From Promethearchaeota archaeon (GTDB lineage: Archaea; Asgardarchaeota; Lokiarchaeia; Sigynarchaeales; SOKP01), in contig JAHLWT010000035.1 of assembly GCA_019057775.1 (NCBI GenBank), positions 1 to 15,456 of the forward strand: a DNA stretch of 15,456 nt, written 5' to 3'. Numbering within the stretch: the first letter of the stretch is position 1; each line of letters begins with the position of its first letter. Shown here one piece after another: positions 6,218-15,341 of the stretch. Below the pieces are notes generated by a model. The model made no database searches. It was not told where the DNA came from and saw only the letters and a list, made by a program, of their open reading frames with translations. A program made the position numbers and the translations under genes.

Positions 6218-6258
6218 GTGGGCGATACCGGGGTACTCGCCCCGCCAGCGTGCGGGGC
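6218..6258 (-). pseudogene. Fragment of a tRNA-Val 3' end joined to a REP-like palindrome
   Basis: The 14 bases GTGGGCGATACCGG (6218-6231) are identical to the acceptor and T-stem strand of the tRNA-Val copies at 6399 and 15168 on the same orientation. After that the similarity ends and a palindrome begins: GCCCCGC (6239-6245), loop, GCGGGGC (6252-6258), where the T-loop would be. I read this as the remnant of a third tRNA-Val copy, either a displaced att fragment from an older integration or a decayed tandem gene, interrupted by a palindromic repeat. Confidence 0.55.
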
Positions 6259-6396: not shown

Positions 6397-6444
6397 TTGT
6401 GGGCGATACCGGATTCGAACCGATGACCCCCTGCTTGTAAGGCA
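6397..6444 (-). repeat. attL: displaced 3' half of tRNA-Val
   Basis: These 48 bp repeat 15166-15213 with one mismatch (T at 6414, G at 15183, in the T-loop). They contain the tRNA acceptor, T-arm, variable region and part of the anticodon arm, and identity stops abruptly after GTAAGGCA. There is no tRNA 5' half beyond this point, so this copy is the chromosomal attachment fragment left after integration. The integrase gene starts 131 bp away. Confidence 0.92.
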
Positions 6445-6517
6445 ATAGTAAGATGTTGTTTATTATTACGCAATACCTTTTATAACTAACGTCTGTTAAT
6501 AAATACAGGTATTTTAA

Positions 6518-6549
6518 TTTGCAATATTATTTAATGTTTTTTACCTTTG
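6518..6549 (+). promoter_or_regulatory. Bacteroidota-type promoter of the integrase gene
   Basis: TTTG at 6518-6521, a 20-nt spacer, and TACCTTTG at 6542-6549 fit the Bacteroidota sigma-factor consensus TTTG, 19-21 nt, TAnnTTTG. Transcription should begin near 6556, about 20 nt before the integrase ATG and inside the adjacent inverted repeat. Confidence 0.7.
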
Positions 6550-6571
6550 TTGTATACTAATTTGTATACAA
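6550..6571. promoter_or_regulatory. Putative operator overlapping the integrase transcription start
   Basis: TTGTATAC (6550-6557) and GTATACAA (6564-6571) form a perfect inverted repeat with a 6-nt spacer, placed between the -7 box and the start codon. The right half lies within TTTGTATACAAT (6561-6572), which recurs exactly at 14891-14902 near the other end of the element. It is a natural site for a repressor or for the element's AlpA-like protein, or an arm-type integrase site. Confidence 0.55.
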
Positions 6572-6574
6572 TAG

Positions 6575-7795
6575 ATGGCAACAGTTAAAATAATTCTACT
6601 CAAAACGAAGGTCAATAAAGACCGATCCCACCCGGTAGTAATAAGATTATCTTCCGGCCGAAACCGCAACTACATTTTTTTAAATCTATTCTGTAAACCT
6701 GGTCAATGGAATGATGGGTTATGTAGGTTTAATACCAACCATAAGAAATTTAAACAGCATAACCGGATTCTGGCAAACCATGAGGAGCGAATTGAAGAAA
6801 TTATGGATTACTTCAAGTTAAGAAACCTGGAATTTTCGGCAGAACTGTTTAAACGTAAATTTAGACGAAAACTGTTAATTAATACAACTGTTTTTAACTA
6901 TTTTGACGCTATTGTAAACGATCTAAAAAGTAATAACAAGATAGGTAATGCAGCAGCAATAAAAGACGCAAAAAACGCTTTAAAACGATTCTATAATGGC
7001 CACCGGCTAATGTTTCAGGATATTGATATTACTTTACTAACTAAATATAAAAACTGGCTACAAGCACAGAAAAACTTTAAAGATGAATATCTTTCAGATA
7101 GAACAGTTAGTGTTTATTTAAGGTCGTTGAGGTCTGTTTACTATCGGGCTATGGGGGAGGGGCTAATATCCGAGGAGCTTAATCCATTTGGTAAACGGAA
7201 ATTTAGTGTAAATAAAGGGTTAAACCTTCGCACCCGGAAAAGGGCTATAACCAAAGAGGAAATAATGAAGATTTATTATTATAAGGGTACTCTTATTGAT
7301 GCAAGAAATATATTTATGTTTAGTTACCTGACCGCTGGAATGAATTTTATTGACATGGCATACTTAAAGTGGTCTAACATTGTAAATAACAGAATTGAGT
7401 ACAAAAGACTTAAGACCAGAAAAGAATTTTCAATTAAAATTACTGATCCAATTCAGAAAATTTTAGACTATTACAAACCTTATGGATCAGAATACATTTT
7501 TCCTATTCTACAAAAAACCCATAAAACCGAAATTCAAAAAAGAGATCGGATAAAAACCGCAAATAAAAAACTTAATCATGACCTCAGTCAGATTGCCAAA
7601 GAGTTAGATATTAACGCACATTTAACCAGTTATGTAGCCAGGCATAGCATGGCCACCGTATTATATAAAACAGAGGGTCAGAATGTATCAGAGATACAGG
7701 AACTTATGGGACATAGCCGGGAGGACGAAACCCGTATCTATCTGGAATCAATTGACCAAGAGAAAAAGGACAAACTTCAAGATAAACTGTTATGA
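6575..7795 (+). CDS. int: Tyrosine recombinase (integrase), Bacteroidota type
   Basis: A 406-residue site-specific recombinase that should integrate and excise the element at tRNA-Val. The N-terminal arm-binding region (1-95) has the Bacteroidota pattern (VVIRLSSGRNRNYIFLNLFCKPGQWN), the SAM-like core-binding domain spans about 103-205, and the catalytic domain 220-400. Visible catalytic residues are Lys280 (RLKTRK), Arg356 (YVARHS), His380 (LMGHS) and the nucleophile Tyr389 (RIYLES). The usual first arginine is not seen: the corresponding motif reads TAGMNFIDMA (253-262), where relatives often have TRGM. CTnDOT IntDOT is known to lack the canonical first Arg, so the enzyme may still be active. 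The gene is 131 bp from attL, under a consensus promoter, and its stop overlaps the next start (ATGA). Confidence 0.95.
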   Translation: MATVKIILLKTKVNKDRSHPVVIRLSSGRNRNYIFLNLFCKPGQWNDGLCRFNTNHKKFKQHNRILANHEERIEEIMDYFKLRNLEFSAELFKRKFRRKLLINTTVFNYFDAIVNDLKSNNKIGNAAAIKDAKNALKRFYNGHRLMFQDIDITLLTKYKNWLQAQKNFKDEYLSDRTVSVYLRSLRSVYYRAMGEGLISEELNPFGKRKFSVNKGLNLRTRKRAITKEEIMKIYYYKGTLIDARNIFMFSYLTAGMNFIDMAYLKWSNIVNNRIEYKRLKTRKEFSIKITDPIQKILDYYKPYGSEYIFPILQKTHKTEIQKRDRIKTANKKLNHDLSQIAKELDINAHLTSYVARHSMATVLYKTEGQNVSEIQELMGHSREDETRIYLESIDQEKKDKLQDKLL

Positions 7796-8496
7796 GTAAA
7801 ATTGAATTGAAATATACCGAAACACTTGAAAAATATTTTAACCTTGATCCTATCAAGATGGATTATCAAACAAAGGAGTTTAAGGAGGGAACAGATGATA
7901 CCTTAATGAATATTTTAGGAAAATATAATATCCCTAAAAAAGATAATCTTAATTCATTTCGGGTGATATTTGTACTAATTGAAAGCACTTATAAAACATT
8001 TAAAGATTATTATAGGGATAGATTTGAGTATTATGAAAAAGAGATGATCGAATTATTAAAATATTTCAAAGACATAAAAAGTAAAAACATTGATGATATT
8101 GAAAGCATTATTATAAAGGATAAAAATGGAGATCTAAAATTATCAACCTATCGCTGGAAAAAAGACATTATAGATATTTTGTCAGAAAGATATGCAGATG
8201 TAACACATGATTTTTTTGAAGTTGAAGATAAAATAGAGTTTTATAAATATATACCACCACCAACAGGCCCATGGGAACCTGCAAAGATACATGTGGGTCA
8301 TATTGCAAAACGAATGATGAATTTCCTAACCGGCGAAAATCTTATTAAGAAAATAACAGAGCAAAGAAAATGTATTGGTGAAATACTTATTTTGGGTGGT
8401 ATATTTGAGGATCGTGAGAGCCTCAATCATAACGTTAAAAACCTCATCGAAAAAGCTGAAAACAGCCTAAAAAGGAAAAAATTACCAAAAAAATAG
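7792..8496 (+). CDS. Uncharacterised protein translationally coupled to the integrase
   Basis: A 234-residue soluble, lysine-rich, mainly helical protein. I do not recognise the family. Its ATG overlaps the integrase stop codon in an ATGA junction, so the two are co-translated and probably act in the same process or at the same time. Features that stand out are a long charged helical first half, a central segment YIPPPTGPWEPAKIHVGHIA (about residues 160-179) with a rigid proline-rich turn, and a basic C-terminal tail (KRKKLPKK) that could contact nucleic acid. There are no membrane segments and no recognisable catalytic motif. In comparable elements this position often holds a regulator or accessory factor, but nothing in the sequence proves that here. 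Confidence 0.8.
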   Translation: MSKIELKYTETLEKYFNLDPIKMDYQTKEFKEGTDDTLMNILGKYNIPKKDNLNSFRVIFVLIESTYKTFKDYYRDRFEYYEKEMIELLKYFKDIKSKNIDDIESIIIKDKNGDLKLSTYRWKKDIIDILSERYADVTHDFFEVEDKIEFYKYIPPPTGPWEPAKIHVGHIAKRMMNFLTGENLIKKITEQRKCIGEILILGGIFEDRESLNHNVKNLIEKAENSLKRKKLPKK

Positions 8497-8558
8497 CCTT
8501 AATTTTTTCCGTCCCTCCATTATTTAGTTACGAAATTTGTTGTATTAATTTAATTAAT

Positions 8559-8867
8559 ATGATACAGCAAGTTTTTTTGTCGATCTCTATCGAAGAACTC
8601 AGAGAGTTAGTGAGGGATTCGGTGAAGGATGTTATTAATCAAAACCCACAAAATGAGTTAATGCGAGCTGATGAAGCCGCAGAATACCTCAAAATAAGCA
8701 AACTTTCAATTTACGGGCTTGTTAATAGGAGAAAGATTCCATTTTCTAAACGGGGAAAATATCTTTATTTTTTCCGAAATGACTTAGCTAAATGGGTGAA
8801 GTCTGAATTAACCATACAGCAAACAGAGGAGGGCTACAATAGTAAACTTGCTAATCAGCTTAAATAA
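8559..8867 (+). CDS. AlpA/excisionase-type helix-turn-helix protein
   Basis: A 102-residue DNA-binding protein of the MerR-like winged-helix (HTH_17) class. Residues 33-80 show the standard pattern: LMRADEAAEYLKIS (first helices), LSIYGLVNRRKIPFSKRGKY (recognition helix and wing) and FFRNDLAKWV. The N-terminal 30 residues form an amphipathic helix that may dimerise. Relatives act as recombination directionality factors or as AlpA-like activators of integrase and excision genes in satellites and islands. It starts 62 bp after the unknown gene, behind a TTTGTTGTAT sequence that also occurs in the integrase leader, so both promoters may answer to the same factor. Confidence 0.88.
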   Translation: MIQQVFLSISIEELRELVRDSVKDVINQNPQNELMRADEAAEYLKISKLSIYGLVNRRKIPFSKRGKYLYFFRNDLAKWVKSELTIQQTEEGYNSKLANQLK

Positions 8868-8887
8868 TTAGATGAAACTACAAAAAA

Positions 8888-9541
8888 ATGGCACTAAGGT
8901 ACATTGACACGGAACTATGGAAAACCAAATGGTTTAGAAAGTTGAAAGTTTCTGAAAAGGCTTTTTATTATTATTTAATAAGTAATTGCGACCATGCCGG
9001 AATATTTGAGGTTGACCTGGAAACAGCAGAGTATTTTATCGGTGAAAAAATTGAAAATCCTAAAGATTTTTCATCTGATAATTTCAGTATCGTTGAAGTG
9101 TCTGATAATAAATGGTTTTTAATTGATTTTTTGAAACTACAATATCCAAAAGGTTTAAATTCCGATAAACCGGCAATAGTATCAGTAAGAAATAGACTGA
9201 ATGAATACAACCTATTAGGAATGATTACAAAACGATTTGGCAATGATTATTTAATGATTAAAGATAAAGACAAAGATAAAGATATGTTTAAGGAGAAAGA
9301 TAAAGATAAAGTTGAATTAAAGAATAGAAGATTAAAGTTAGAAAATGAATTAAAACCTTTTTTTAATGAAAAAAATCAGAAAATTTTGAATGAATTTTTG
9401 GATTTTTGGACAGATATAATTGATTTTGAGGGGAATAAAAAAATGAAATTTGAATTAGAATTAAACTGGAATACTGAAAAAAGGCTTAAAGAATGGATAA
9501 TGAACGAAATTCCCAAAAAAGAGGTAATTGAAATTAATTAA
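8888..9541 (+). CDS. Replication-initiation-like phage protein (DnaD/DnaT-like architecture)
   Basis: A 217-residue protein resembling the replication-module proteins of Bacteroidota phages and islands. The N-terminal domain (1-120; MALRYIDTELWKTKWFRKL, SEKAFYYYLISNCDHAGIFE, RNRLNEYNLLGM) looks like a winged-helix origin-binding fold. It is followed by a low-complexity linker of repeated KDK units (125-141), and the C-terminus (166-206) carries the pattern FLDFWTDI, KMKFELELNWNTEKRLKEW, which matches the C-terminal motif I associate with Bacteroidota phage DnaD-like proteins. It would load host helicase at an element origin. It lies 20 bp after the AlpA-like gene. The exact role is inferred from architecture and place. 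Confidence 0.72.
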   Translation: MALRYIDTELWKTKWFRKLKVSEKAFYYYLISNCDHAGIFEVDLETAEYFIGEKIENPKDFSSDNFSIVEVSDNKWFLIDFLKLQYPKGLNSDKPAIVSVRNRLNEYNLLGMITKRFGNDYLMIKDKDKDKDMFKEKDKDKVELKNRRLKLENELKPFFNEKNQKILNEFLDFWTDIIDFEGNKKMKFELELNWNTEKRLKEWIMNEIPKKEVIEIN

Positions 9542-9558
9542 CCAAAAAAACTGAAATT

Positions 9559-10083
9559 ATGTTTTACAACAAAGCAAGCAAATTCCGAAAATCCGAAACA
9601 TTAAAAACAGCATTTCGACAGTATCAAGTTCAAAACGTATCGCAATTTCTTCTGGAGGCAAAACTTTATCCCAGATTTCCCGATCCAATTACGGAAACAT
9701 CGGCAGCACGTTTGATTTTTCTTTGTTGCGTTGGACATAGTACAGACTTTCGAAAGGTATTAGAGCAAGATGTAAAATCAGGTGAATGTGTTGAACGGAT
9801 TTCGGAACTGTTAGGCGACACTCGAAAGATAAAGGAGCTTAAATATTTGGAACTATATTTTGATCGGGAAAATTATCATTCTGCAATAGTTAAGATTTAC
9901 GAAAAGGATAAGGAATTATCTGGGAGCGATCCTAAAGCACTTTTTAGTAAAAACTATTTATGTTGCCACAAGCTAACCAAAGATTTTCTATTCAGGATTT
10001 ATGCAGAATTGCATACTGAATTTTATGATCAGGATGAACCGGAAGGGCAACTAATGATAAATGCAATAAAAGGAGTTAATTAA
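9559..10083 (+). CDS. Uncharacterised protein of the replication region
   Basis: A 174-residue soluble protein whose family I do not recognise. It is largely helical, with several cysteines (LIFLCCVGHS near 58-67, SGECVERIS near 79-87, NYLCCHKLT near 132-140); they are not spaced as an obvious zinc site. It sits 17 bp after the replication-like gene, and its TAA is separated by one base from the next ATG, so it is translated as part of the same operon. A role in replication or in controlling it is likely from position only. Confidence 0.78.
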   Translation: MFYNKASKFRKSETLKTAFRQYQVQNVSQFLLEAKLYPRFPDPITETSAARLIFLCCVGHSTDFRKVLEQDVKSGECVERISELLGDTRKIKELKYLELYFDRENYHSAIVKIYEKDKELSGSDPKALFSKNYLCCHKLTKDFLFRIYAELHTEFYDQDEPEGQLMINAIKGVN

Positions 10084-10084
10084 A

Positions 10085-10423
10085 ATGACAGGCAAAGGAG
10101 CAAGGAATAAAGGGAACGGATATGAACGTAAGGTAATGAATGAGTTTGTAAAGTTAGGCTTTGATGATTGTAAAACATCCCGGAATGAATCCAGGACAAC
10201 AGACAGCAACGGGATCGACCTGGTATTTACTGATCCCTTTAACATACAATGTAAAGCACGGGAATCTCAATTTAATTATTTGAAATTATTAGAAACAATG
10301 CCAAAGGATAACAACTATAATCTAATCATTCACAAAAAGAATTATTCAGGTGAGCTGGTAGTAATGAATAAAAAAGATTTTTACGAAATAATTGGAATGT
10401 TAAAAACAGAAAATATTATATGA
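10085..10423 (+). CDS. PD-(D/E)xK nuclease, Holliday-junction-resolvase-like
   Basis: A 112-residue protein with the arrangement of small archaeal Hjc-type and phage resolvases: GNGYERKVMNEFVKLGF with Glu14, then GIDLVFTDPFNIQCKARES with Asp45 and the Gln55-x-Lys57 pair. The early Glu, the Asp and the final QxK motif make up a PD-(D/E)xK active site in its QxK variant. It would cleave branched DNA made during replication or before packaging. The start follows the previous stop by one base, and its own stop overlaps the next small ORF (ATGA). Fold assignment is reasonably firm; the precise substrate is inference. Confidence 0.75.
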   Translation: MTGKGARNKGNGYERKVMNEFVKLGFDDCKTSRNESRTTDSNGIDLVFTDPFNIQCKARESQFNYLKLLETMPKDNNYNLIIHKKNYSGELVVMNKKDFYEIIGMLKTENII

Positions 10424-10536
10424 GACCAAGGATAAAAAAGAACAAGGACATTAAACACTGGACAAAGGTTTATAAGATCATACGAAATGATAAGAAGATT
10501 AACAAAGGAATATATAAAAAGGTTGTAACTAACTGA
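10420..10536 (+). CDS. Small basic protein of 38 residues
   Basis: ATG 10420 overlaps the nuclease stop codon (ATGA) and the frame ends at TGA 10534-10536. The product (MRPRIKKNKDIKHWTKVYKI and following) has about fifteen Lys/Arg residues, suiting nucleic-acid binding. The coupling and strong composition bias support a real gene, but a 38-codon frame is weak evidence by itself and I know no family for it. Confidence 0.45.
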   Translation: MRPRIKKNKDIKHWTKVYKIIRNDKKINKGIYKKVVTN

Positions 10537-10653
10537 GGGAGAGGGGGCTATGTCATTCCTATTACCCCTTCCACATTAACCGAGCCCGTTGTGTCGAAGT
10601 TTTTTATCTAAATATCCCTGCAAAAATGATTTTAATTATTCTAAAGGAAAAAA

Positions 10654-10962
10654 ATGAAGCTGAACAAAGAGCCTAAAGCGTTGTATGACAGCATTAAAAA
10701 AGAGTACAGTATTGCTGATCCGGGCGGACTGGCTCTATTAACCATTGTAGTTGAGAGTTACCAGCTTATGCGACAATGCCAGGATAAAATAGATCGAGAG
10801 GGTTTGACCGTAAAAGACAAATATCAAATGAAGGCACATCCATTGTGCAGCGTACTGAAAGACGCTAAAAGTCAAATTTTAGCTTCACTTAAGATGTTGA
10901 ATTTGGAAGGGATCGAAGTTTTGCCAGTTGGCCGGCCTACTCAGGGAAGGATAGGAACTTAA
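10654..10962 (+). CDS. terS: P27-type phage terminase small subunit
   Basis: A 102-residue protein with the P27 small-terminase layout: KEPKALYDSIKKEYSIADPG, then the helical LALLTIVVESYQLMRQCQDK, the loop EGLTVKDKYQMKAHPL and a final helix SQILASLKMLNLEG. P27-family TerS recognises phage DNA at the packaging site and hands it to the large terminase. Here no large subunit is encoded anywhere in the element, so this TerS would have to redirect a helper phage's TerL, as documented for phage-inducible islands. It follows a 117-bp gap with an AAAGGAAAAAA purine run before the ATG. Confidence 0.85.
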   Translation: MKLNKEPKALYDSIKKEYSIADPGGLALLTIVVESYQLMRQCQDKIDREGLTVKDKYQMKAHPLCSVLKDAKSQILASLKMLNLEGIEVLPVGRPTQGRIGT

Positions 10963-10972
10963 ATTTAAAGAT

Positions 10973-11374
10973 ATGCGAAAAGTACGATCCAGACAGCCAT
11001 TAACATTAACGAAAGTAGATCAGCAATTTTTATTTGATGGATGGGAGAGATTCGACCTGGATATCGACCATGAAACTATACAAGGAAAATGGGATAAGTA
11101 CAAAACTGAGGTTATGAAAGAATGGTTTAATGAACCGGATAACTTATTTAAAAGACCTTGGAGCTGGTGGCAATATGACAATCCTGAAGCCAGGCGAAAG
11201 GTGATTAACATTAACGGAAATATCCCTCATAAAGAATCGGATTTTAATTTCGGTAAACCCACAGGCTGGAATAAATGGGATCATGAAAAACAACCGGTAT
11301 TTGAAACACAAAGAGCCTATTTGATAAGAAAAAATTTACTGACAGAACAGGAAAAAACGATTATAGAGACTTGA
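10973..11374 (+). CDS. Uncharacterised phage packaging-region protein (RPWSWWQYDNPEAR motif)
   Basis: A 133-residue protein starting 10 bp after TerS. Its centre reads LFKRPWSWWQYDNPEARRKV (about residues 60-80), very similar to the RPWAWW...APEPR signature of small proteins encoded beside terminase genes in many tailed phages. The C-terminus (FETQRAYLIRKNLLTEQEKT) is also typical of that group. The family's function is unknown to me; its constant place beside terminase genes suggests a packaging or head-assembly role. In a complete phage this spot would be followed by large terminase and portal genes, whereas here the capsid gene comes next. Confidence 0.72.
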   Translation: MRKVRSRQPLTLTKVDQQFLFDGWERFDLDIDHETIQGKWDKYKTEVMKEWFNEPDNLFKRPWSWWQYDNPEARRKVININGNIPHKESDFNFGKPTGWNKWDHEKQPVFETQRAYLIRKNLLTEQEKTIIET

Positions 11375-11450
11375 TAAATACTGAGAAATCAGTCACCCGG
11401 TGGGGTCTTACACGTAAAATTAATAGAGTATAAATTTAATAACAAATATT

Positions 11451-12698
11451 ATGATGAAATTGAAAGGTTTATATGAGCAAAGAGGAACGCTCATGGATGA
11501 ATTACGAGATTGTACAGATAGAATTAGTGATGCAACGGATGCGTCAATAGCACGAAAAATCCAGACAGAATTTGAAAAAATTGAAATTAAAATTAGAAAA
11601 CTGGATTGTGATATTGGGATTATGGAAAGAAAAGAAGGAATTGCTGCCGGCAAGTCAACATACATTGGTAGCGATTCAGAAATCTCAGGTAGTAATATGG
11701 TGAACAGCCTTCCTAATGATGAGTACAAAAATAACCCGGCTTTTTTGGCATTGGAAACGTATGCTAAGTACGGCGAAAAGGGGATAACATCTGAAATGAG
11801 AGCTAATTATTTTACAACCACAGATGGCGAAGGCGGCTATACGATTCCGACTGAGCTTTATAAAGAAATCCACATGAGTAAATTGGCATTTGGTGGGTTA
11901 ATCTCACCGGACAATGTAAGCTGGTTGACGACCACAAGCGGGAATGATATTACAGTTCCTGCAAGTGACGATACCGGAAACTCTGGATTTTTGGTGACAG
12001 AAAAGACTGATCTTCAAACGAGTGCCGCAAATATGACTTTTACCGGCGTTGCTCTAAAGGCATACAAATATAGTTCCGGAATGGTCGTTGTAACAAATGA
12101 GCTTTTACAGGACACGGCATTTGATTTTGGTAGATTTTTGTTTGACGCCCTGTTAACTCGGCTGTGGAGAGGTTTAAACACCGTTTTTACAACGGGTGAC
12201 GGGTCAAGTAAACCTAAAGGGATTTATGCGACTTCAACCAAAGGAGAAGACGGCGTGAAAAGATCGATCACCCGAGACGATCTCTTAAATTTATTTCATG
12301 AGGTTGATCCGGCGTACAGAATCGGTAAAAAGGTTCAATGGATGTTTAACGACGCAACATTAAAAACCATAAAAAGTTTGATCTATACGGCCACTTATGA
12401 TGAGAGTTTGATGTGGCAACCGTCAATGGCGGTAGGTGCTCCGCAAACAATCGAAGGTATTAGGTACACACTTAATCAAGACATGGAGGATATCTTCCCG
12501 ACGAAAAAGAGTGTAATGTTTGGCGATTTTGCTGAGGTGGTTGTAAGACAGGCCGGCCCTTTGCGGTTTGTAAGATTAACTGAAAGGTTTGCCGAGTTGG
12601 ATCAAGTAGCCTTCTGCGTTTTGGGTAGATTCGATTGTAATAAGCTAACTGTCACAGGTACATATCCTTACAAACACCTGAGACATGCCACTACTTGA
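11451..12698 (+). CDS. HK97-fold phage major capsid protein
   Basis: A 415-residue protein with the HK97 family layout. Residues 1-100 form a charged coiled-coil delta-like region (MMKLKGLYEQRGTLMDELRD, EFEKIEIKIRKLDCD) that acts as an internal scaffold in the family. The shell domain follows: GGYTIPTELYKEI, SWLTTTSGNDITVPASDD, TEKTDLQTSAANMTFTGVAL, KYSSGMVVVTNELLQD, RGLNTVFTTGDGSSKPKGIY, and the closing FGDFAEVVVRQAGPLRFVRL and GRFDCNKLTVTGTYPY. HK97 delta regions are normally removed by a prohead protease, but none is encoded here, so a helper enzyme or an unprocessed shell would be needed. It is preceded by a 76-bp leader with small hairpins (for example ACTGA-gaaa-TCAGT, 11380-11393). A second ATG at 11454 is an equally good start. 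Confidence 0.93.
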   Translation: MMKLKGLYEQRGTLMDELRDCTDRISDATDASIARKIQTEFEKIEIKIRKLDCDIGIMERKEGIAAGKSTYIGSDSEISGSNMVNSLPNDEYKNNPAFLALETYAKYGEKGITSEMRANYFTTTDGEGGYTIPTELYKEIHMSKLAFGGLISPDNVSWLTTTSGNDITVPASDDTGNSGFLVTEKTDLQTSAANMTFTGVALKAYKYSSGMVVVTNELLQDTAFDFGRFLFDALLTRLWRGLNTVFTTGDGSSKPKGIYATSTKGEDGVKRSITRDDLLNLFHEVDPAYRIGKKVQWMFNDATLKTIKSLIYTATYDESLMWQPSMAVGAPQTIEGIRYTLNQDMEDIFPTKKSVMFGDFAEVVVRQAGPLRFVRLTERFAELDQVAFCVLGRFDCNKLTVTGTYPYKHLRHATT

Positions 12699-12722
12699 TA
12701 TATAATTAAATATCAGATAGTT

Positions 12723-12893
12723 ATGAAAGTTAAATTCTTAAAAACGGTTGGAGAACCCAGGAAAACCTATCATCGAGGTATTGAATATGATTTGCCAAAG
12801 CATGATGCTGAATATTATATTAGAGATGGTTTGGCCGAAAAAGGTTCTGATCCTGTAAAGGAAAAACGACCTTTGAAACCGTTAGAAGTATAA
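12723..12893 (+). CDS. Small phage head-region protein, 56 residues
   Basis: ATG 12723 to TAA 12891-12893, 24 bp after the capsid gene. The product begins MKVKFLKTVGEPRKTYHRG and contains YDLPKHDAEYYIRDGLAEK. The pattern of an N-terminal strand MKVKFL, a YxLP turn and a short helix ending in GLAE is that of small uncharacterised proteins that commonly follow major capsid genes in tailed phages. It may decorate or stabilise the capsid. The protein-like pattern and position argue that it is real despite its size. Confidence 0.68.
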   Translation: MKVKFLKTVGEPRKTYHRGIEYDLPKHDAEYYIRDGLAEKGSDPVKEKRPLKPLEV

Positions 12894-12929
12894 TTTATTG
12901 TGTTTTTTTTATGTTTGTGGCCGGGGGTG

Positions 12930-13114
12930 CAGCCGGTTAATTCTGTACATTGTACTTTTAGTTAATAGCAGGTGCGAATCCTGCAAGCTGATTACCGGGA
13001 GACTACTTAATCTTTACGGTACAACCTCCTGAGTCAGTATTTCATTTCTTAATTTTTAGTTGATAGCGGTGCGAATCCGTAAAGGGTAAGGCCGGTTTTG
13101 CTTTACCCTTTTTT
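12930..13114 (+). ncRNA. Structured noncoding RNA ending in an intrinsic terminator (candidate)
   Basis: Downstream of the head gene lies a sequence with no frame but much pairing. Two repeated units share TTTTAGTT, then RATAGC and GGTGCGAATCC (12956-12981 and 13054-13078); each GGTGCGAATCC forms a T-arm-like hairpin, best in GCAGG-TGCGAAT-CCTGC. CTTTACGG (13012-13019) can pair with CCGTAAAG (13077-13084), which overlaps the 5' arm of the terminator AAAGGGTAA (13081-13089) / TTACCCTTT (13103-13111) with its T-run. The alternative pairings are mutually exclusive, as in an attenuator. It could be an independent small RNA or the 3' UTR of the capsid operon. Confidence 0.5.
13081..13114 (+). terminator. 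Intrinsic terminator at the end of the capsid operon
   Basis: AAAGGGTAA (13081-13089) is exactly complementary to TTACCCTTT (13103-13111) and runs into six T residues (13109-13114). It would stop transcripts from the terminase-capsid operon. Confidence 0.75.
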
Positions 13115-13123
13115 AAAAACATT

Positions 13124-13197
13124 GCTTAGGGAAGGTCTGACAAAGTCCCAAGCAGTCTGAACTCCGATAGGAGGCACGTGCCTTCCCTGGGCTTTTT
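13124..13197 (+). ncRNA. Second structured RNA with a long closing stem and T-tract
   Basis: GCTTAGGGAAGG (13124-13135) pairs with CCTTCCCTGGGC (13181-13192) over 12 bp including two G-U pairs, and TTTTT follows. The 45 nt inside form a small hairpin GAC-aaa-GTC (13139-13147) and CTCC-GATA-GGAG (13162-13173), next to the palindrome GGCACGTGCC (13173-13182). It could be a compact, multi-branched sRNA or a fancy terminator. I match it to no known RNA family. It begins only 9 nt after the previous terminator, so the two may be separate transcripts or tandem stops. Confidence 0.5.
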
Positions 13198-13463
13198 AAT
13201 TTAACATTATTTAGACTCGGTTCAAATAAACTATATATGTAGGGGGGTAGTATAAGGTATAGGAAGGGTTTAAATCGTTCGTTGGAGGGCTTAAAATGCG
13301 TCAAATGCTGCCTGGGAAATAAAAAACCACACTTTTTGGTGGGGCTTTACGAATTTTAAGAATTTTTAACATTATTTAAGCAACTTTTTCCGTATAATAT
13401 ATGGTCTTTAATATACGTTATAACAAGAAAATCGATAGCATAATTTGTAAAAAAGGTATGTTT
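13198..13463. other. Noncoding stretch with a repeated TTTAACATTATTTA
   Basis: No plausible gene. TTTAACATTATTTA occurs at 13200-13213 and exactly again at 13365-13378. A G-rich patch (GTAGGGGGGTAGTATAAGG, near 13240-13258) lies between. The repeats could be protein-binding sites or iteron-like elements; two copies are too few to decide. Confidence 0.45.
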
Positions 13464-13496
13464 TTTGGCTTATAGTGTTAAAAAATAGTAATTTTG
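13464..13496 (+). promoter_or_regulatory. Bacteroidota-type promoter ahead of the late cargo genes
   Basis: TTTG (13464-13467), a 21-nt spacer and TAATTTTG (13489-13496) match the phylum consensus. Transcription from about 13503 would give a leader of some 330 nt before the first membrane-protein gene, and that leader contains hairpins such as TTAACTA (13626-13632) / TAGTTAA (13640-13646). It lies after both upstream terminators, so the cargo genes appear to be expressed independently. Confidence 0.6.
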
Positions 13497-13646
13497 TTAA
13501 CTTTTTTGTTGAAAACTTATTCAAAAGGAGCTTGTTTTTAAAAAAATTTGTATCTTAGACTATTCAAATGTAAGTTGAAGTTTGTCCGAATAACACTTAC
13601 AGAGCATAACATTAAATTACTTTTCTTAACTATTTTTGTTAGTTAA

Positions 13647-13825
13647 AATAGAACCACCGGGAATTATGCAAAGCCAATTATTTTTGAATTTGTTCCTGGT
13701 GAAATTAAAGAAACTCTAAAAAAAGAGGTTACTTCCTCCCGGTTTGAACAGGTTGTCTTTGTATGAGAAGTTTTATTAATAAGGCAAAGCATAACGAAGA
13801 TTTCTTAGCTTCGATTGAATGTTAA
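13647..13825 (+). pseudogene. Gene remnants, the second resembling the start of a HEPN-type protein
   Basis: One frame without a start codon encodes KPIIFEFVPGEIKETL and onward to a TGA at 13764-13766. It looks like real protein, not random AT-rich translation. An ATG overlapping that stop (13763, ATGA) opens a 20-codon frame containing INKAKHNEDFLASIE, which resembles the KAxHNExFLxxI opening of HEPN-like proteins, and then stops at TAA 13823-13825. Both are too short to function, so I infer a decayed two-gene pair, perhaps an old defence or toxin-antitoxin cargo. The similarity is based on short segments. Confidence 0.35.
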
Positions 13826-13835
13826 GTGAAATAGA

Positions 13836-14159
13836 ATGTTTACAGGTAAATACGACGCTGATTTTTGGTTACGTGTATTAATGAAGCACGGTATTCCAGG
13901 ATTTTTAGTTGTTTCCATTTTCGTGTTGATCTTGACATCAGCTTCAATCGAACAAAAGCAACAACTTATTGATACATATATTCTTTTTAAGCCGATCGGA
14001 GGTGATTGTGGAGTATATATGAAGATCGTTGTAATATTGTTTGTAATTATTATTTATGAAGCGATCTTTCTTAGAAGGAGGTTTTTATTAATGAAAGCCC
14101 GTATCGACGAGATTGCAGAGGAAAGAACCAAACTACAAGATTTATTATATAGACAATAA
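13836..14159 (+). CDS. Small membrane protein with two transmembrane segments
   Basis: A 107-residue protein of unknown family. Transmembrane helices are at about 19-36 (GIPGFLVVSIFVLILTSA) and 62-79 (MKIVVILFVIIIYEAIFL), separated by a loop with IEQKQQLIDTYILFKPIGG. The C-terminal 28 residues (RRRFLLMKARIDEIAEERTK and on) form a charged, probably coiled-coil helix on the cytoplasmic side. It is the first of two cargo genes; the next starts 19 bp later. Satellites and prophages often carry such pairs near the att site as exclusion, defence or holin-like functions, but no signature proves any of these. Confidence 0.78.
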   Translation: MFTGKYDADFWLRVLMKHGIPGFLVVSIFVLILTSASIEQKQQLIDTYILFKPIGGDCGVYMKIVVILFVIIIYEAIFLRRRFLLMKARIDEIAEERTKLQDLLYRQ

Positions 14160-14178
14160 CCACTTAAAAAATAGACAA

Positions 14179-14694
14179 ATGAATCTACTTCTCTTATTGC
14201 TTATCGGAGTTCTTATATACTGGAGAGTAAGTCACCTGGATGGGAAAAACGTATCCCTTGAGTTTAAGAATAGGCTTTTTTCTATCAGAGACAGACTTAG
14301 GTTTTATGCTATTCAGGGGAAATTGAAGGTTGAAGATCCTATCTTTATTAGGTTGGAACAGTTACTAATCAAGTTGGCTAGGGATTCAGAGAAGCTTAAC
14401 ATTTATTATTTGGTGATTATCTATGTCCTTAAGAATCCAACAGAAGAAGATTATGCAGAGTTAGAGAAAGACTTCTTAAATCCTGTAATGGGAAACAAGT
14501 ACTACAAGGAGACCTACAATAATATCAAGAGTTCTCTTTTTCAAATGCTTTACCGGAAACATTTTTTACTTATTGGTGCATATAAGTTAAAGTATATGAT
14601 TGAGAAAAACTTTGAAGATTTAAAGAAAGCCATCGTATATAACGTTTTTAAGTTCCAGGGGGAGTTAATTCCTAATTATCAGTTCACAAACTAA
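14179..14694 (+). CDS. Membrane-anchored protein of unknown family
   Basis: With the start at ATG 14179, 171 residues follow. Residues 2-16 (NLLLLLLIGVLIYWR) are an N-terminal membrane anchor, and the rest is a cytosolic helical domain with FKNRLFSIRDRLRFYAIQGK (29-48) and a C-terminal YNVFKFQGELIPNYQF. A longer frame starts at 14113, but it would overlap the previous gene by 47 nt and put charged residues before the anchor, so I prefer 14179, which is 19 nt after that gene's stop. I do not recognise the family. Adjacent position, shared membrane location and common transcription suggest that it works with the preceding protein, possibly against competing phages. Confidence 0.77.
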   Translation: MNLLLLLLIGVLIYWRVSHLDGKNVSLEFKNRLFSIRDRLRFYAIQGKLKVEDPIFIRLEQLLIKLARDSEKLNIYYLVIIYVLKNPTEEDYAELEKDFLNPVMGNKYYKETYNNIKSSLFQMLYRKHFLLIGAYKLKYMIEKNFEDLKKAIVYNVFKFQGELIPNYQFTN

Positions 14695-14785
14695 CATTTT
14701 TTAAATAGAATATTGATTTGTGATATTATAACCTAATGCTTTTTTAAGTTTTGGCAACCTAAGATTTAATTTATAATAAAGATAA

Positions 14786-14816
14786 GCCCTTTCTCTTGAA
14801 AGGGTTTTATTTTTTT
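14786..14816 (+). terminator. Intrinsic terminator of the cargo operon
   Basis: CCCTTTC (14787-14793), loop TCTT, and GAAAGGG (14798-14804) are followed by TTTTATTTTTTT. It lies 93 bp after the last cargo gene and closes that transcription unit. Confidence 0.85.
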
Positions 14817-14890
14817 AATTAACAAGGCTATTTTTCAACAAACAAATTAGTTGATGTGAATAACTTTACATTAATATTTGATAGTTTTTC

Positions 14891-14902
14891 TTTGTATACA
14901 AT
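14891..14902. promoter_or_regulatory. TTTGTATACAAT site, second copy of the left-end operator half
   Basis: The 12 bases TTTGTATACAAT equal 6561-6572, and TTGTATACAA within it is a perfect 10-bp palindrome. A related GTATACTAAT at 15110-15119 equals 6553-6562. So both ends of the element carry two related motifs, as expected for integrase-arm, excisionase or repressor sites. Confidence 0.5.
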
Positions 14903-14946
14903 TTTAATTTATTTTGACCTATCCATTCTGATCCTACCGTCATAAG

Positions 14947-15036
14947 ATGAAAAACAATATTTTAACGGAATATAATTCAATTCCACCTTATAAGATCGGT
15001 TACCAGGTAAAAAGTATTACAGAAAAGATGACCTGA
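14947..15036 (+). CDS. Possible 29-residue peptide near the right end
   Basis: ATG 14947 to TGA 15034-15036, product beginning MKNNILTEYNSIPPYKIGYQ. The frame is followed 26 bp later by an intrinsic terminator, and the stretch between two terminators would otherwise be empty. The start has no clear promoter, and a frame this short may be chance. Confidence 0.25.
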   Translation: MKNNILTEYNSIPPYKIGYQVKSITEKMT

Positions 15037-15061
15037 TTGTTTAAGTAAGTAAAATTAAAAA

Positions 15062-15094
15062 GGCCTGTATGTTTGATTATACAAGCCCTTTTTT
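15062..15094. terminator. Bidirectional intrinsic terminator near attR
   Basis: GGCCTGTAT (15062-15070) pairs with ATACAAGCC (15079-15087) with one mismatch. T-runs follow on the plus strand (15089-15094) and on the minus strand (complement of the A-run before 15061). On the minus strand it would replace the terminator lost to the tRNA through integration. Confidence 0.65.
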
Positions 15095-15165
15095 ATTGTA
15101 TCCTTTTGTGTATACTAATAAAGAAAAACAGAGATTATTAATTTATGTAAGTCTCTGTTTATCAG

Positions 15166-15213
15166 TTGTGGGCGATACCGGAGTCGAACCGATGACCCCC
15201 TGCTTGTAAGGCA
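15166..15213 (-). repeat. attR: 3' half of the intact tRNA-Val
   Basis: The 48-bp partner of 6397-6444, with one mismatch at 15183. Here it is fused to a genuine tRNA 5' half, so the element supplies the 3' end and restores the gene. The mismatch changes one T-loop base (TTCGACT here, TTCGAAT in the displaced copy), so the element brought its own slightly different tRNA end. Confidence 0.92.
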
Positions 15214-15243
15214 GGTGCTCTGAACCAGCTGAGCTAATCGCCC
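15169..15243 (-). tRNA. tRNA-Val (anticodon UAC)
   Basis: On the minus strand a 75-nt cloverleaf folds completely: acceptor GGGCGAT / ATCGCCC, D-arm GCTC / GAGC with loop AGCTGGTTCA, anticodon arm CCTGC-CTTACAA-GCAGG, variable GGGTC, T-arm ATCGG-TTCGACT-CCGGT, discriminator A. Loop position 34-36 reads UAC, decoding GUA valine. CCA is not encoded. It is the attachment gene of the element, and its function is preserved. A consensus promoter lies about 110 bp upstream, beyond a decayed tRNA-like copy. Confidence 0.95.
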
Positions 15244-15251
15244 TTAATTAT

Positions 15252-15341
15252 TCTTCCTTTTCCTCTATCGAACGCCTGACACTCCAGACTGCTCGGGTTG
15301 CTCTGAACCTCCCGATAGCCATCGGGAGAGCTAATCGCCCC
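15252..15341 (-). pseudogene. Decayed tRNA-Val-like sequence with a palindrome in its D-loop
   Basis: On the minus strand GGGCGATTAGCTC (15340-15328) and GGTTCAGAGCA (15309-15299) are identical to the 5' half of the intact tRNA-Val, but the four D-loop bases between them are replaced by TCCCGATGGCTATCGGGA, a perfect hairpin. Beyond that only fragments such as CGTTCGA recall the T-arm, and no 3' acceptor strand is present. It lies immediately after the promoter and before the intact gene, so it would be part of the same primary transcript. It is a broken duplicate, not a working tRNA. Confidence 0.65.
15310..15327. repeat. REP-like palindrome inserted in the tRNA remnant
   Basis: TCCCGAT-agcc-ATCGGGA is a perfect 7-bp hairpin (8 bp with its flanking C and G). 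Sequences of this CCCGATAGCnATCGGG kind are, as far as I recall, common dispersed palindromes in Bacteroidota genomes. It replaces exactly the AGCT of the D-loop. Confidence 0.6.

Follow-up and report, generated by a model that had tools for sequence, protein, structure and literature searches.

A putative integrative phage satellite encoding its own small terminase subunit and capsid protein

Two 48-bp direct repeats at a tRNA-Val gene enclose an element of 8,769 bp. It encodes a small terminase subunit (TerS) and an HK97-type major capsid protein, and no large terminase (TerL), portal or protease was found in it. We consider the element to be probably a phage satellite of the integrative kind that follows the logic of a PICI. 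A satellite had been proposed in a sequence-only reading of the same DNA, and the occurrence of TerS and capsid genes without TerL, portal or protease between att repeats supports that proposal. The window analysed is the whole stretch of 15,456 nucleotides, probably the entire contig; its features are listed in Table 1.

Element boundaries and gene content

The intact tRNA-Val repeat boundaries described in the sequence-only reading were borne out: the two copies agree at 47 of 48 positions, and both ARAGORN and Rfam recognize the tRNA. Apart from this gene, Rfam returned a single chance-level match in the window. Site-specific att sequences and an integrase, which mark PICIs in the wider sense, are both present. 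Within the window, the word TTGTATAC is confined to 6550, 6562–6571 (palindrome) and 14892–14901 (palindrome), giving five strand matches against 0.61 expected, a count reached in 0/200 shuffles. The two ends of the element also have sequence words in common, including the region of the TTGTATAC sites at 6550–6571. The TTGTATAC sites are possible integrase arm sites.

Table 1. Features of the element and its integration site.
Feature	Position	Strand	Evidence or remark
Displaced tRNA-Val 3'-half repeat, one att boundary	6397..6444	.	47/48 identical to 15166-15213
Pair of TTGTATAC sites (one a palindrome); candidate operators or arm sites for the integrase	6550..6571	.	Word count; putative function
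Tyrosine integrase, 406 aa	6575..7795	+	PF00589, PF13102, PF17293 (all over cut-off); phrog_1
ORF2, 234 aa, no assigned function	7792..8496	+	Chance-level matches only
AlpA/excisionase-like HTH_17 protein, 102 aa	8559..8867	+	PF12728 46.6 bits; TIGR01764 34.3 bits (cut-off 28.8)
ORF4, 217 aa, putative replication-type protein	8888..9541	+	phrog_19415; putative role
ORF5, 174 aa	9559..10083	+	No match, Pfam and PHROGs included
PDDEXK nuclease/resolvase-like, 112 aa	10085..10423	+	phrog_244 5e-13; PF24608 below cut-off
P27-family small terminase subunit (TerS), 102 aa	10654..10962	+	PF05119 (Terminase_4) 35.7 bits, cut-off 24.7; phrog_83
ORF8, orphan of 133 aa, flanked by the TerS and capsid genes	10973..11374	+	Single relative P0122, 60%
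HK97-type major capsid protein, 415 aa, full-length	11451..12698	+	TIGR01554 207.6 bits; PF05065 140 bits
ORF10, 56 aa, phage-type	12723..12893	+	phrog_2616 E=0.0023
Terminator-like hairpin and T run closing the int-to-ORF10 gene run	13082..13117	+	Read from sequence
ORF11, 107 aa, hydrophobic segments by eye	13836..14159	+	
ORF12, 171 aa, hydrophobic N terminus by eye	14179..14694	+	phrog_13156 E=0.0005, unknown function
Palindromic TTGTATACAA site near right end	14892..14901	.	Variant at 15107-15117
Second att boundary, 3' half of intact tRNA-Val	15166..15213	.	48-bp repeat, one mismatch
tRNA-Val(TAC), integration site, intact gene	15168..15243	-	ARAGORN; Rfam RF00005 69.1 bits

The main ORFs are whole, and from the integrase gene to ORF10 eight of the nine gaps measure 76 bp or less (the ninth is 230 bp), in agreement with the compact, undamaged core described earlier. 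The hairpin that closes this run is paired in the computed fold, yet it is absent from the terminator scan list. The integrase named in the sequence-only reading was confirmed, the putative AlpA-like regulator corresponds to a protein of the HTH_17/excisionase family, and the resolvase-like nuclease is of the PDDEXK type by its PHROGs match, though the Pfam match falls short. The replication module fared less well. ORF4 stands as a candidate, but it matches only a PHROG of unknown function, with partial matches in three phage records and no Pfam family. For ORF2, searches of Pfam, PHROGs, NCBIfam and PADLOC gave only chance-level matches.

ORF12 gave a weak PADLOC match to 1TM-TIR (E=0.006), the sole match among six ORFs run. 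Together with the hydrophobic segments noted by eye in two ORFs near the element end, one might think of an interference island, in which TerS and the capsid protein mainly poison the packaging and head assembly of an infecting phage, with little transfer of the element itself. Ccm does block phage reproduction by way of SaPI-sized capsids, according to the accessible part of PMC6092414. The integrase, att repeats and terminal sites nevertheless look intact, and PADLOC gave one weak match in six ORFs; we regard this reading as very unlikely.

The host, judged by sequence, is probably a member of the Bacteroidota. Its beta-galactosidase matches a 'Parabacteroides sp.' MAG at 68%. The assignment goes no further than probable because a search for the host TPR gene in 123 genomes from the family of this MAG was negative at 1e-60.

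The head genes

The P27 assignment of TerS holds by PF05119 and phrog_83, whereas the score against the stricter TIGR01558 (30.4 bits) is below the cut-off of 45.6. The HK97 capsid protein proposed earlier was confirmed, TIGR01554 covering residues 5–398 at 207.6 bits against a cut-off of 27.5. Its predicted N terminus has helices at residues 2–27 and 31–68, a delta-type region, in a weak model (pLDDT 58). The AF2 model of ORF8 was unusable (pLDDT 36). When the capsid model was compared using Foldseek, the query-normalised TM-scores were below 0.3, and phage capsids led the list. Of the solved structures, the RcGTA capsid protein is the one it matches best by sequence, and encapsulins enter the Foldseek list from rank 16, so that use of the shell in the manner of a gene-transfer agent or encapsulin was considered. 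We hold this to be extremely improbable: phage capsids (Mycofy1, R4C, T5) outrank the encapsulins, TerS points to specific packaging, and portal, TerL, tail and cargo genes were not found in the element.

For the missing genes, profiles for TerL, portal and protease were built from phages with related capsids. None matched at E≤1 in the window's stop-to-stop ORFs of at least 30 residues. Pfam (run on 14 proteins, including two from host genes) and PHROGs (12 proteins) likewise revealed no TerL, portal or protease, and no tail or lysis families were seen among the ORFs run against these two collections. These five functions are among those noted earlier as lacking, and the head genes whose discovery would have spoken against a satellite, TerL, portal and protease, did not come to light in these searches. 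Two profile matches elsewhere, portal in G577 L196 (E=0.0002, 13.8 bits) and TerL in L177 (E=0.91), were judged to be chance. With respect to the gene sets of known elements, the element has the major capsid protein of a capsid-forming PICI (cfPICI) and no detected portal, head maturation protease or TerL; the TerL, portal, tail and lysis genes of a conventional prophage were not found.

Relatives of the capsid gene

The collection viral_contigs was scanned with the capsid sequence alone and then with three-, twelve- and five-row alignments, the last two giving the best 80 of 575 and the best 80 of 596 relatives. Among the matches listed there are at least 127 viral loci, at least 92 of them non-redundant; loci with identical capsid sequences were merged before portal and TerL were counted. 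Where the sequence extends at least 2.5 kb upstream of the capsid gene, 64/64 non-redundant loci contain a portal gene, as do 70/72 where it extends at least 1.5 kb; both TerL and portal are present in 31/31 with at least 5 kb (all among the matches listed). In single-sequence comparison (E≤1e-3) of the 127 listed loci with the window, the capsid alone is common, joined by ORF10 in four loci. Phage L197, whose capsid belongs to the same clade as that of the window, has TerL, portal and a weak protease match. Directly 3' of its capsid gene lies a relative of ORF10 (7047–7316, E=1.3e-6), an arrangement that would fit a remnant and as such counts against a satellite.

Searches of phages with the element DNA and with TerS returned nothing or nearly nothing. 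Across 295 genomes belonging to the same order as G001, a single marginal TerS match came up (E=0.007), and it lies within a longer frame. None of 32 pattern matches in a genome_contigs scan with the capsid alignment was a relative, and the capsid search was negative in all ten genomes to which beta-galactosidase loci had led. Relatives of the integrase occur in seven small faecal 'Bacteriophage sp.' records and in a plasmid; these have the integrase and little else in common with the element and were rejected as members of the same family. Among the seven records and the plasmid (part), one also has an AlpA-like protein (E=8e-8), and other element genes gave no match at E≤0.1.

The near relatives of the capsid protein (70% identity) and ORF8 (60%) each belong to a contig of 13,985 bases, apparently one and the same, and no TerS was found listed with a contig of this length. 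Also counting against a satellite, this near relative is the only one known, no Stl-like repressor was recognised among the element genes, and no packaging site, cos included, was identified in the element.

These data bear on whether the element is a decayed prophage that lost TerL, portal, protease, tail and lysis genes by deletion, with integrase, TerS and capsid left by chance. The sequence-only reading had held that full-length prophages among close relatives would make this copy a deletion product. That description fits the distant relatives with readable context, while the only near relative falls outside the count. The conventional nature of the listed viral relatives wherever enough sequence exists, and L197, do favour decay. 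Against it stand the whole ORFs and short gaps. ORF8 was not detected in viral_contigs or phages, nor in any of the at least 127 viral loci among the matches listed, and it recurs with a related capsid. Decay becomes less likely because this pair is found again on another contig, and because the TerS-ORF-capsid arrangement recurs in the unrelated G527 element described below. We judge a decayed prophage to be improbable overall, and fresh decay unlikely given the recurrence of capsid and ORF8; a satellite remains the preferred reading.

A second element of like layout

G527, from the same phylum draw, has a 9.7-kb element of its own, independent of the first and located at tRNA-Asp. Repeat copies of the tRNA-Asp end lie 9,671 bp apart, and the order is int-HTH-TerS-ORFs-capsid. 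Two ORFs lie between TerS and capsid. Its TerS is recovered at E=1.7e-11 by a profile built without G527; a profile containing the G527 sequence itself is circular for this purpose and was set aside. TerL, portal and protease were not found in this element, and the whole genome gave no match to the PF04860 portal or PF03354 TerL families (one Pfam family each). In the capsid tree the two elements belong to different clades. Of the gene order in 8–10 kb at tRNA-Val sites that the sequence-only reading proposed to look for, layout and size recur in G527, at tRNA-Asp and with a capsid of another clade. A second, separately assembled element of like layout suggests a recurring strategy.

Other phages have W-S-W-W-like motifs close to their terminases. 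ORF8 and the middle ORF of G527 are linked only by a W-S-W-W motif, with E=8 for a two-row profile, and we do not claim that they are homologous. By regular expression, no motif of this type was found in the loci searched.

Proposed mode of action

On entry or induction of a helper phage, the AlpA-like protein would help to switch on and excise the satellite. ORF4 may then act with host or helper enzymes in its replication, during which the PDDEXK nuclease could trim branched DNA. The satellite TerS would direct the helper TerL onto satellite DNA, and the satellite capsid protein would join the helper capsid protein around the helper portal, replacement being less likely. The resulting head would suit 8.8 kb or multiples thereof, with protease, connectors, tail and lysis supplied by the helper.

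The alternative to mixing is a shell made entirely of the element's protein, built on the helper portal with the helper protease, in which case its own TerS and shell together would exclude the helper genome. In favour are the full-length protein with its long N-terminal helices (weak model, pLDDT 58) and the tree, by which the window element and G527 each acquired a complete phage capsid gene separately. Portal, capsid protein and protease are, however, usually matched to one another. Moreover, SaPIbov5 Ccm co-assembles with the helper protein (accessible portion of PMC8569155), and the cfPICIs, which make their own shells, also carry portal and protease (accessible portion of PMC10690885). 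We find a pure shell rather unlikely and favour the satellite with a mixed head. More tentatively still than the satellite itself, and with considerable doubt, the window element and G527 might be two independent captures within a 'shell plus selector' class of Bacteroidota-group satellites, of 8–10 kb and at tRNA genes, which repeatedly took up TerS and a complete capsid gene and dock their own shell on the portal, protease, motor and tail of a helper.

If the satellite reading is true, a minimum kit of TerS plus capsid protein was adopted at least twice in the Bacteroidota group, and DNA selection and shell shaping are split from the supply of motor, portal and tail. The element offers concrete genes for asking whether one foreign capsid protein redirects a whole phage head. 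Such elements could escape satellite finders whose gene models come from cfPICIs or PICIs; SatelliteFinder missed TG93, according to the accessible text of PMC13230959.

Comparison with known systems

Satellites are described from Staphylococcus, E. coli, Pasteurella, Vibrio and Streptomyces in the literature as far as accessible, and among the papers listed for satellites or PICIs together with Bacteroidota, none was seen to describe a satellite from this phylum. Conventional HK97-like prophages and phages share the capsid family, and TerS related by iterated profile is present in 23 of the 92 non-redundant viral loci among the matches listed; unlike the element, the listed phages have a portal and, where the sequence suffices, TerL and mostly a protease. 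The cfPICIs also encode a capsid protein and TerS and depend on a helper, but they carry protease, portal, connectors, TerL and an HNH nuclease (PMC10690885, accessible portion). Small capsid-encoding satellites are already known, namely PmCI172 (PMC6092414) and TG93 (PMC13230959), both from the accessible text. TG93, a PISP of Vibrio crassostreae, is an 11.1-kb satellite with capsid protein, TerS and regulator; it differs in being an episome with Capsid protein E and a protease and, in the accessible text of PMC13230959, no detected integrase.

PICIs with a capsid homologue (SaPIbov5, Pasteurella PmCI172) resemble the element in specific att, integrase and capsid homologue; AlpA is found in Gram-negative PICIs, and TerS in some PICIs (accessible parts of PMC6092414 and PMC8569155). 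Unlike in them, neither an Stl repressor nor a cos site was detected in the element and no replication gene was recognised, and its host group is outside the taxa described for them in these parts. SaPIbov5 Ccm is a delta-domain capsid homologue mixed into the helper's capsid, and no protease is identified in SaPIbov5 in the accessible portion of PMC8569155. The element likewise has a delta-type capsid homologue (helices from the weak model, pLDDT 58) and no detected protease or portal of its own. Its closest precedents are the PICIs with a capsid homologue, SaPIbov5 with Ccm and PmCI172, rather than the capsid-forming PICIs.

Boundaries and gene content

The window, apparently an entire contig of 15,456 bases, carries the element between two repeats that both correspond to the 3′ half of tRNA-Val(TAC), with the intact gene at the right end (see table); the sequence-only reading had already claimed boundaries of 48-bp tRNA-Val repeats. 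The integrase gene starts 130 bp inward of the left repeat. Repeats at tRNA-Val with an integrase just inside are what a tyrosine integrase typically leaves on inserting into a tRNA gene. Host-type genes for a GH2 β-galactosidase and a TPR protein lie to the left. The closest match to the β-galactosidase, at 68% identity, comes from a MAG named Parabacteroides sp., ahead of 53% for the runner-up; this is possibly a host clue or a transfer. A whole-window search placed TTGTATAC at three places only, all near the element ends; there are five strand matches, a number reached in 0/200 shuffles. Either arm sites for the integrase or a shared operator would fit this distribution. Further tRNA-Val scraps lie outside the element, the right-hand one (seen by eye) interrupted by a TCCCGATAGCCATCGGGA palindrome; they suggest an older tRNA array or repeated site use.

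Ten genes, all in the same direction, run from 6575 to 12893 in the order integrase, ORF2, AlpA-like HTH_17 protein, ORF4, ORF5, PDDEXK nuclease, TerS, ORF8, capsid protein and ORF10. Eight of the nine gaps measure at most 76 bp, which bears out the tight spacing noted earlier; the ninth, of 230 bp, might hold a late promoter or a packaging site. The integrase, regulator, nuclease, TerS and capsid protein named in the sequence-only reading all have family matches; that of TerS clears the cut-off in Pfam and falls short of the stricter one in NCBIfam. The TIGR01554 match spans nearly the full length of the capsid protein. The terminator-like hairpin, read from the sequence, was paired in the fold and not listed by a separate scan; two more ORFs without known function lie between it and the right end. 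Two T-arm-like hairpins with the loop TGCGAAT were seen by eye after the capsid genes and were paired in the fold, with no match in the tRNA search or Rfam. The region 12910–13200 folds little better than shuffles (z −1.73).

Features of the window element and of related loci
Locus	Feature	Position	Remarks
Window	GH2 β-galactosidase	197–2992	
Window	tRNA-Val scraps	6219–6231; ~15294–15340	left; right
Window	Boundary repeats	6397–6444; 15166–15213	48 bp each, 47/48 identical
Window	TTGTATAC sites	6550; 6562–6571; 14892–14901	
Window	Gap upstream of TerS	10424–10653	largest in gene run
Window	ORF10	12723–12893	
Window	T-arm-like hairpins	12960–13080	
Window	Terminator-like hairpin	13082–13117	downstream of ORF10
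Window	tRNA-Val(TAC), intact gene	15168–15243	minus strand
L197	ORF10 relative	7047–7316	E=1.3e-6
L177	TerS	~13334	E=1.7e-11, profile leaving G527 TerS out; PF05119 21.5 bits, below cut-off
L177	Metallopeptidase-like ORF	14015–14464	PF13398 26.3 bits (cut-off 26)
L177	Capsid gene	14670	PF05065 246.5 bits
L195	Second G527 element	~9085–15298	~6.2 kb, tRNA-Ala

Head and packaging genes

Profiles for TerL, portal and protease, iterated from phage loci with relatives of the window capsid, gave nothing at E≤1 among window ORFs of at least 30 residues, in agreement with the absence claimed earlier. Non-redundant viral loci were grouped by the length of sequence available upstream of the capsid gene. 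For minima of 1.5, 2.5, 3.5 and 5 kb, portal was found in 70/72, 64/64, 52/52 and 31/31, TerL in 57/72, 55/64, 50/52 and 31/31, and protease in 61/72, 53/64, 41/52 and 26/31; because these same loci served to train the profiles, the counts describe the regularity of the phage layout and are no independent sensitivity test. In independent family searches of genomes, PF04860 matched two of four (G923 and G114; not G527 or G577) and PF03354 three of six (G114, G1055 and G1213; not G527, G577 or G923, whose TerL gene is cut by the contig end).

Origin of the capsid genes

The window capsid pairs with P0002, its nearest relative at 70% identity (support 1.0), in a tree of 131 capsid proteins built with FastTree from 401 columns and rooted at the midpoint. 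The clade adds P0003, P0005 and L197 (0.983). L197 is a phage in which a portal, part of a TerL gene and a weakly matching protease were found. In L197 the ORF10 relative lies immediately downstream of the capsid gene, so capsid and ORF10 probably came jointly from a phage. The same picture would be expected of an old phage remnant. A word-based search of 5.8 billion proteins found one ORF8 relative, P0122, at 60% identity; P0002 and P0122 appear to share a contig, both being listed with 13,985 bases. That capsid and ORF8 were kept together through this divergence argues against a fresh deletion product. TerS has a relative at 81%, whose contig measures 1,114 bases; no TerS relative is listed with 13,985 bases, so the TerS of the P0002/P0122 relative has diverged, been cut off or is absent.

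An independent element in G527

The G527 and G577 capsids pair (1.0) elsewhere in the tree, adjoining L002 (0.47). The simplest reading of this tree, in which not every deep node has good support, is that the window and G527 represent two separate capsid captures. G527 was found by capsid profile in the draw from the phylum of G001. Its element locus, L177, has two ORFs between TerS and the capsid gene and, upstream, an integrase (PF13102 above cut-off, PF00589 below) and an HTH_17 protein. Also upstream is a large protein whose AAA/P-loop matches all stay sub-threshold. A 26-nt repeat (24/26 identical) occurs in copies 9,671 bp apart; they agree exactly over 15 bp, the tRNA-Asp 3′ end. The sequence-only reading had proposed a search for the same gene order at tRNA-Val sites; the similar layout in G527 lies at tRNA-Asp. 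In the 34 kb of L177 examined, no TerL, portal or protease profile matched at E≤0.01; a TerL-profile match at E=0.91 is at chance level. The whole genome gave 0 matches to PF04860 and PF03354, one family each for portal and TerL. The metallopeptidase-like ORF between TerS and capsid has an HEACH motif and may be an unusual kind of maturation protease.

A second G527 element (L195) carries an integrase and an HTH protein but gave no match for TerS or capsid. Its large protein is shared with the first element (95% DNA identity over 2,054 bp), so the packaging genes, present in one, behave as a separable cassette. G577 has a related element at tRNA-Ala (L196). The capsid fragment of G577, 84% identical to the G527 capsid, is at a contig end with the upstream side off that contig, and tRNA-Arg(CCT) lies ~1.4 kb beyond.

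Capsid matches were rare in the genome draws, which overlap and differ in threshold: 0/10 genomes in one, 1/393 in the order (E≤1e-3), 3/395 in the phylum (1e-10) and 1/277 in the class (1e-20) of G001, 1/140 in the family of G005 (1e-10), and 4/195 in the class and 2/7 in the family of G527 (both 1e-20). Seven distinct genomes matched. In five (G923, G114, G1055, G1112 and G1213) a portal gene lies beside the capsid gene; four of these also showed TerL (not G1112) and four a protease (not G114). The other two are G527, with its minimal element, and G577, cut by the contig end. Seven human faecal 'Bacteriophage sp.' records (L165–L171, 4–16 kb) have related integrases; other window-element genes were not found in them, except one AlpA-like match. 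Some of these records may represent small integrative elements of another kind.

Proposed mechanism and comparison with known satellites

The window's capsid protein would most probably be built into the shell of a helper, with its TerS directing the helper's TerL to satellite DNA; we infer everything here beyond gene identity. Joining is favoured by two precedents. SaPIbov5 Ccm, a satellite-borne capsid homologue with a delta domain and no identified protease, occupies pentamers of the helper's shell, giving a smaller head (PMC8569155). PmCI172, which also has a gene for a capsid homologue, produces small heads, the gene's role in that not being proven (PMC6092414). A shell formed by the window protein alone is possible, though less probable.

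No description of a Bacteroidota satellite came up in the literature searched, which included PMC11389934, PMC12324425 and PMC12946183. cfPICIs have portal, protease and TerL (PMC10690885); since all three were sought in the window element and not found, it is not filed as one. TG93 of Vibrio is another small arrangement, with capsid, protease and TerS (PMC13230959), whereas the window element has no protease match. With neither a repressor nor a replication gene nor a helper demonstrated, strict PICI membership is not assigned; judging by its genes, the element would work like a PICI.
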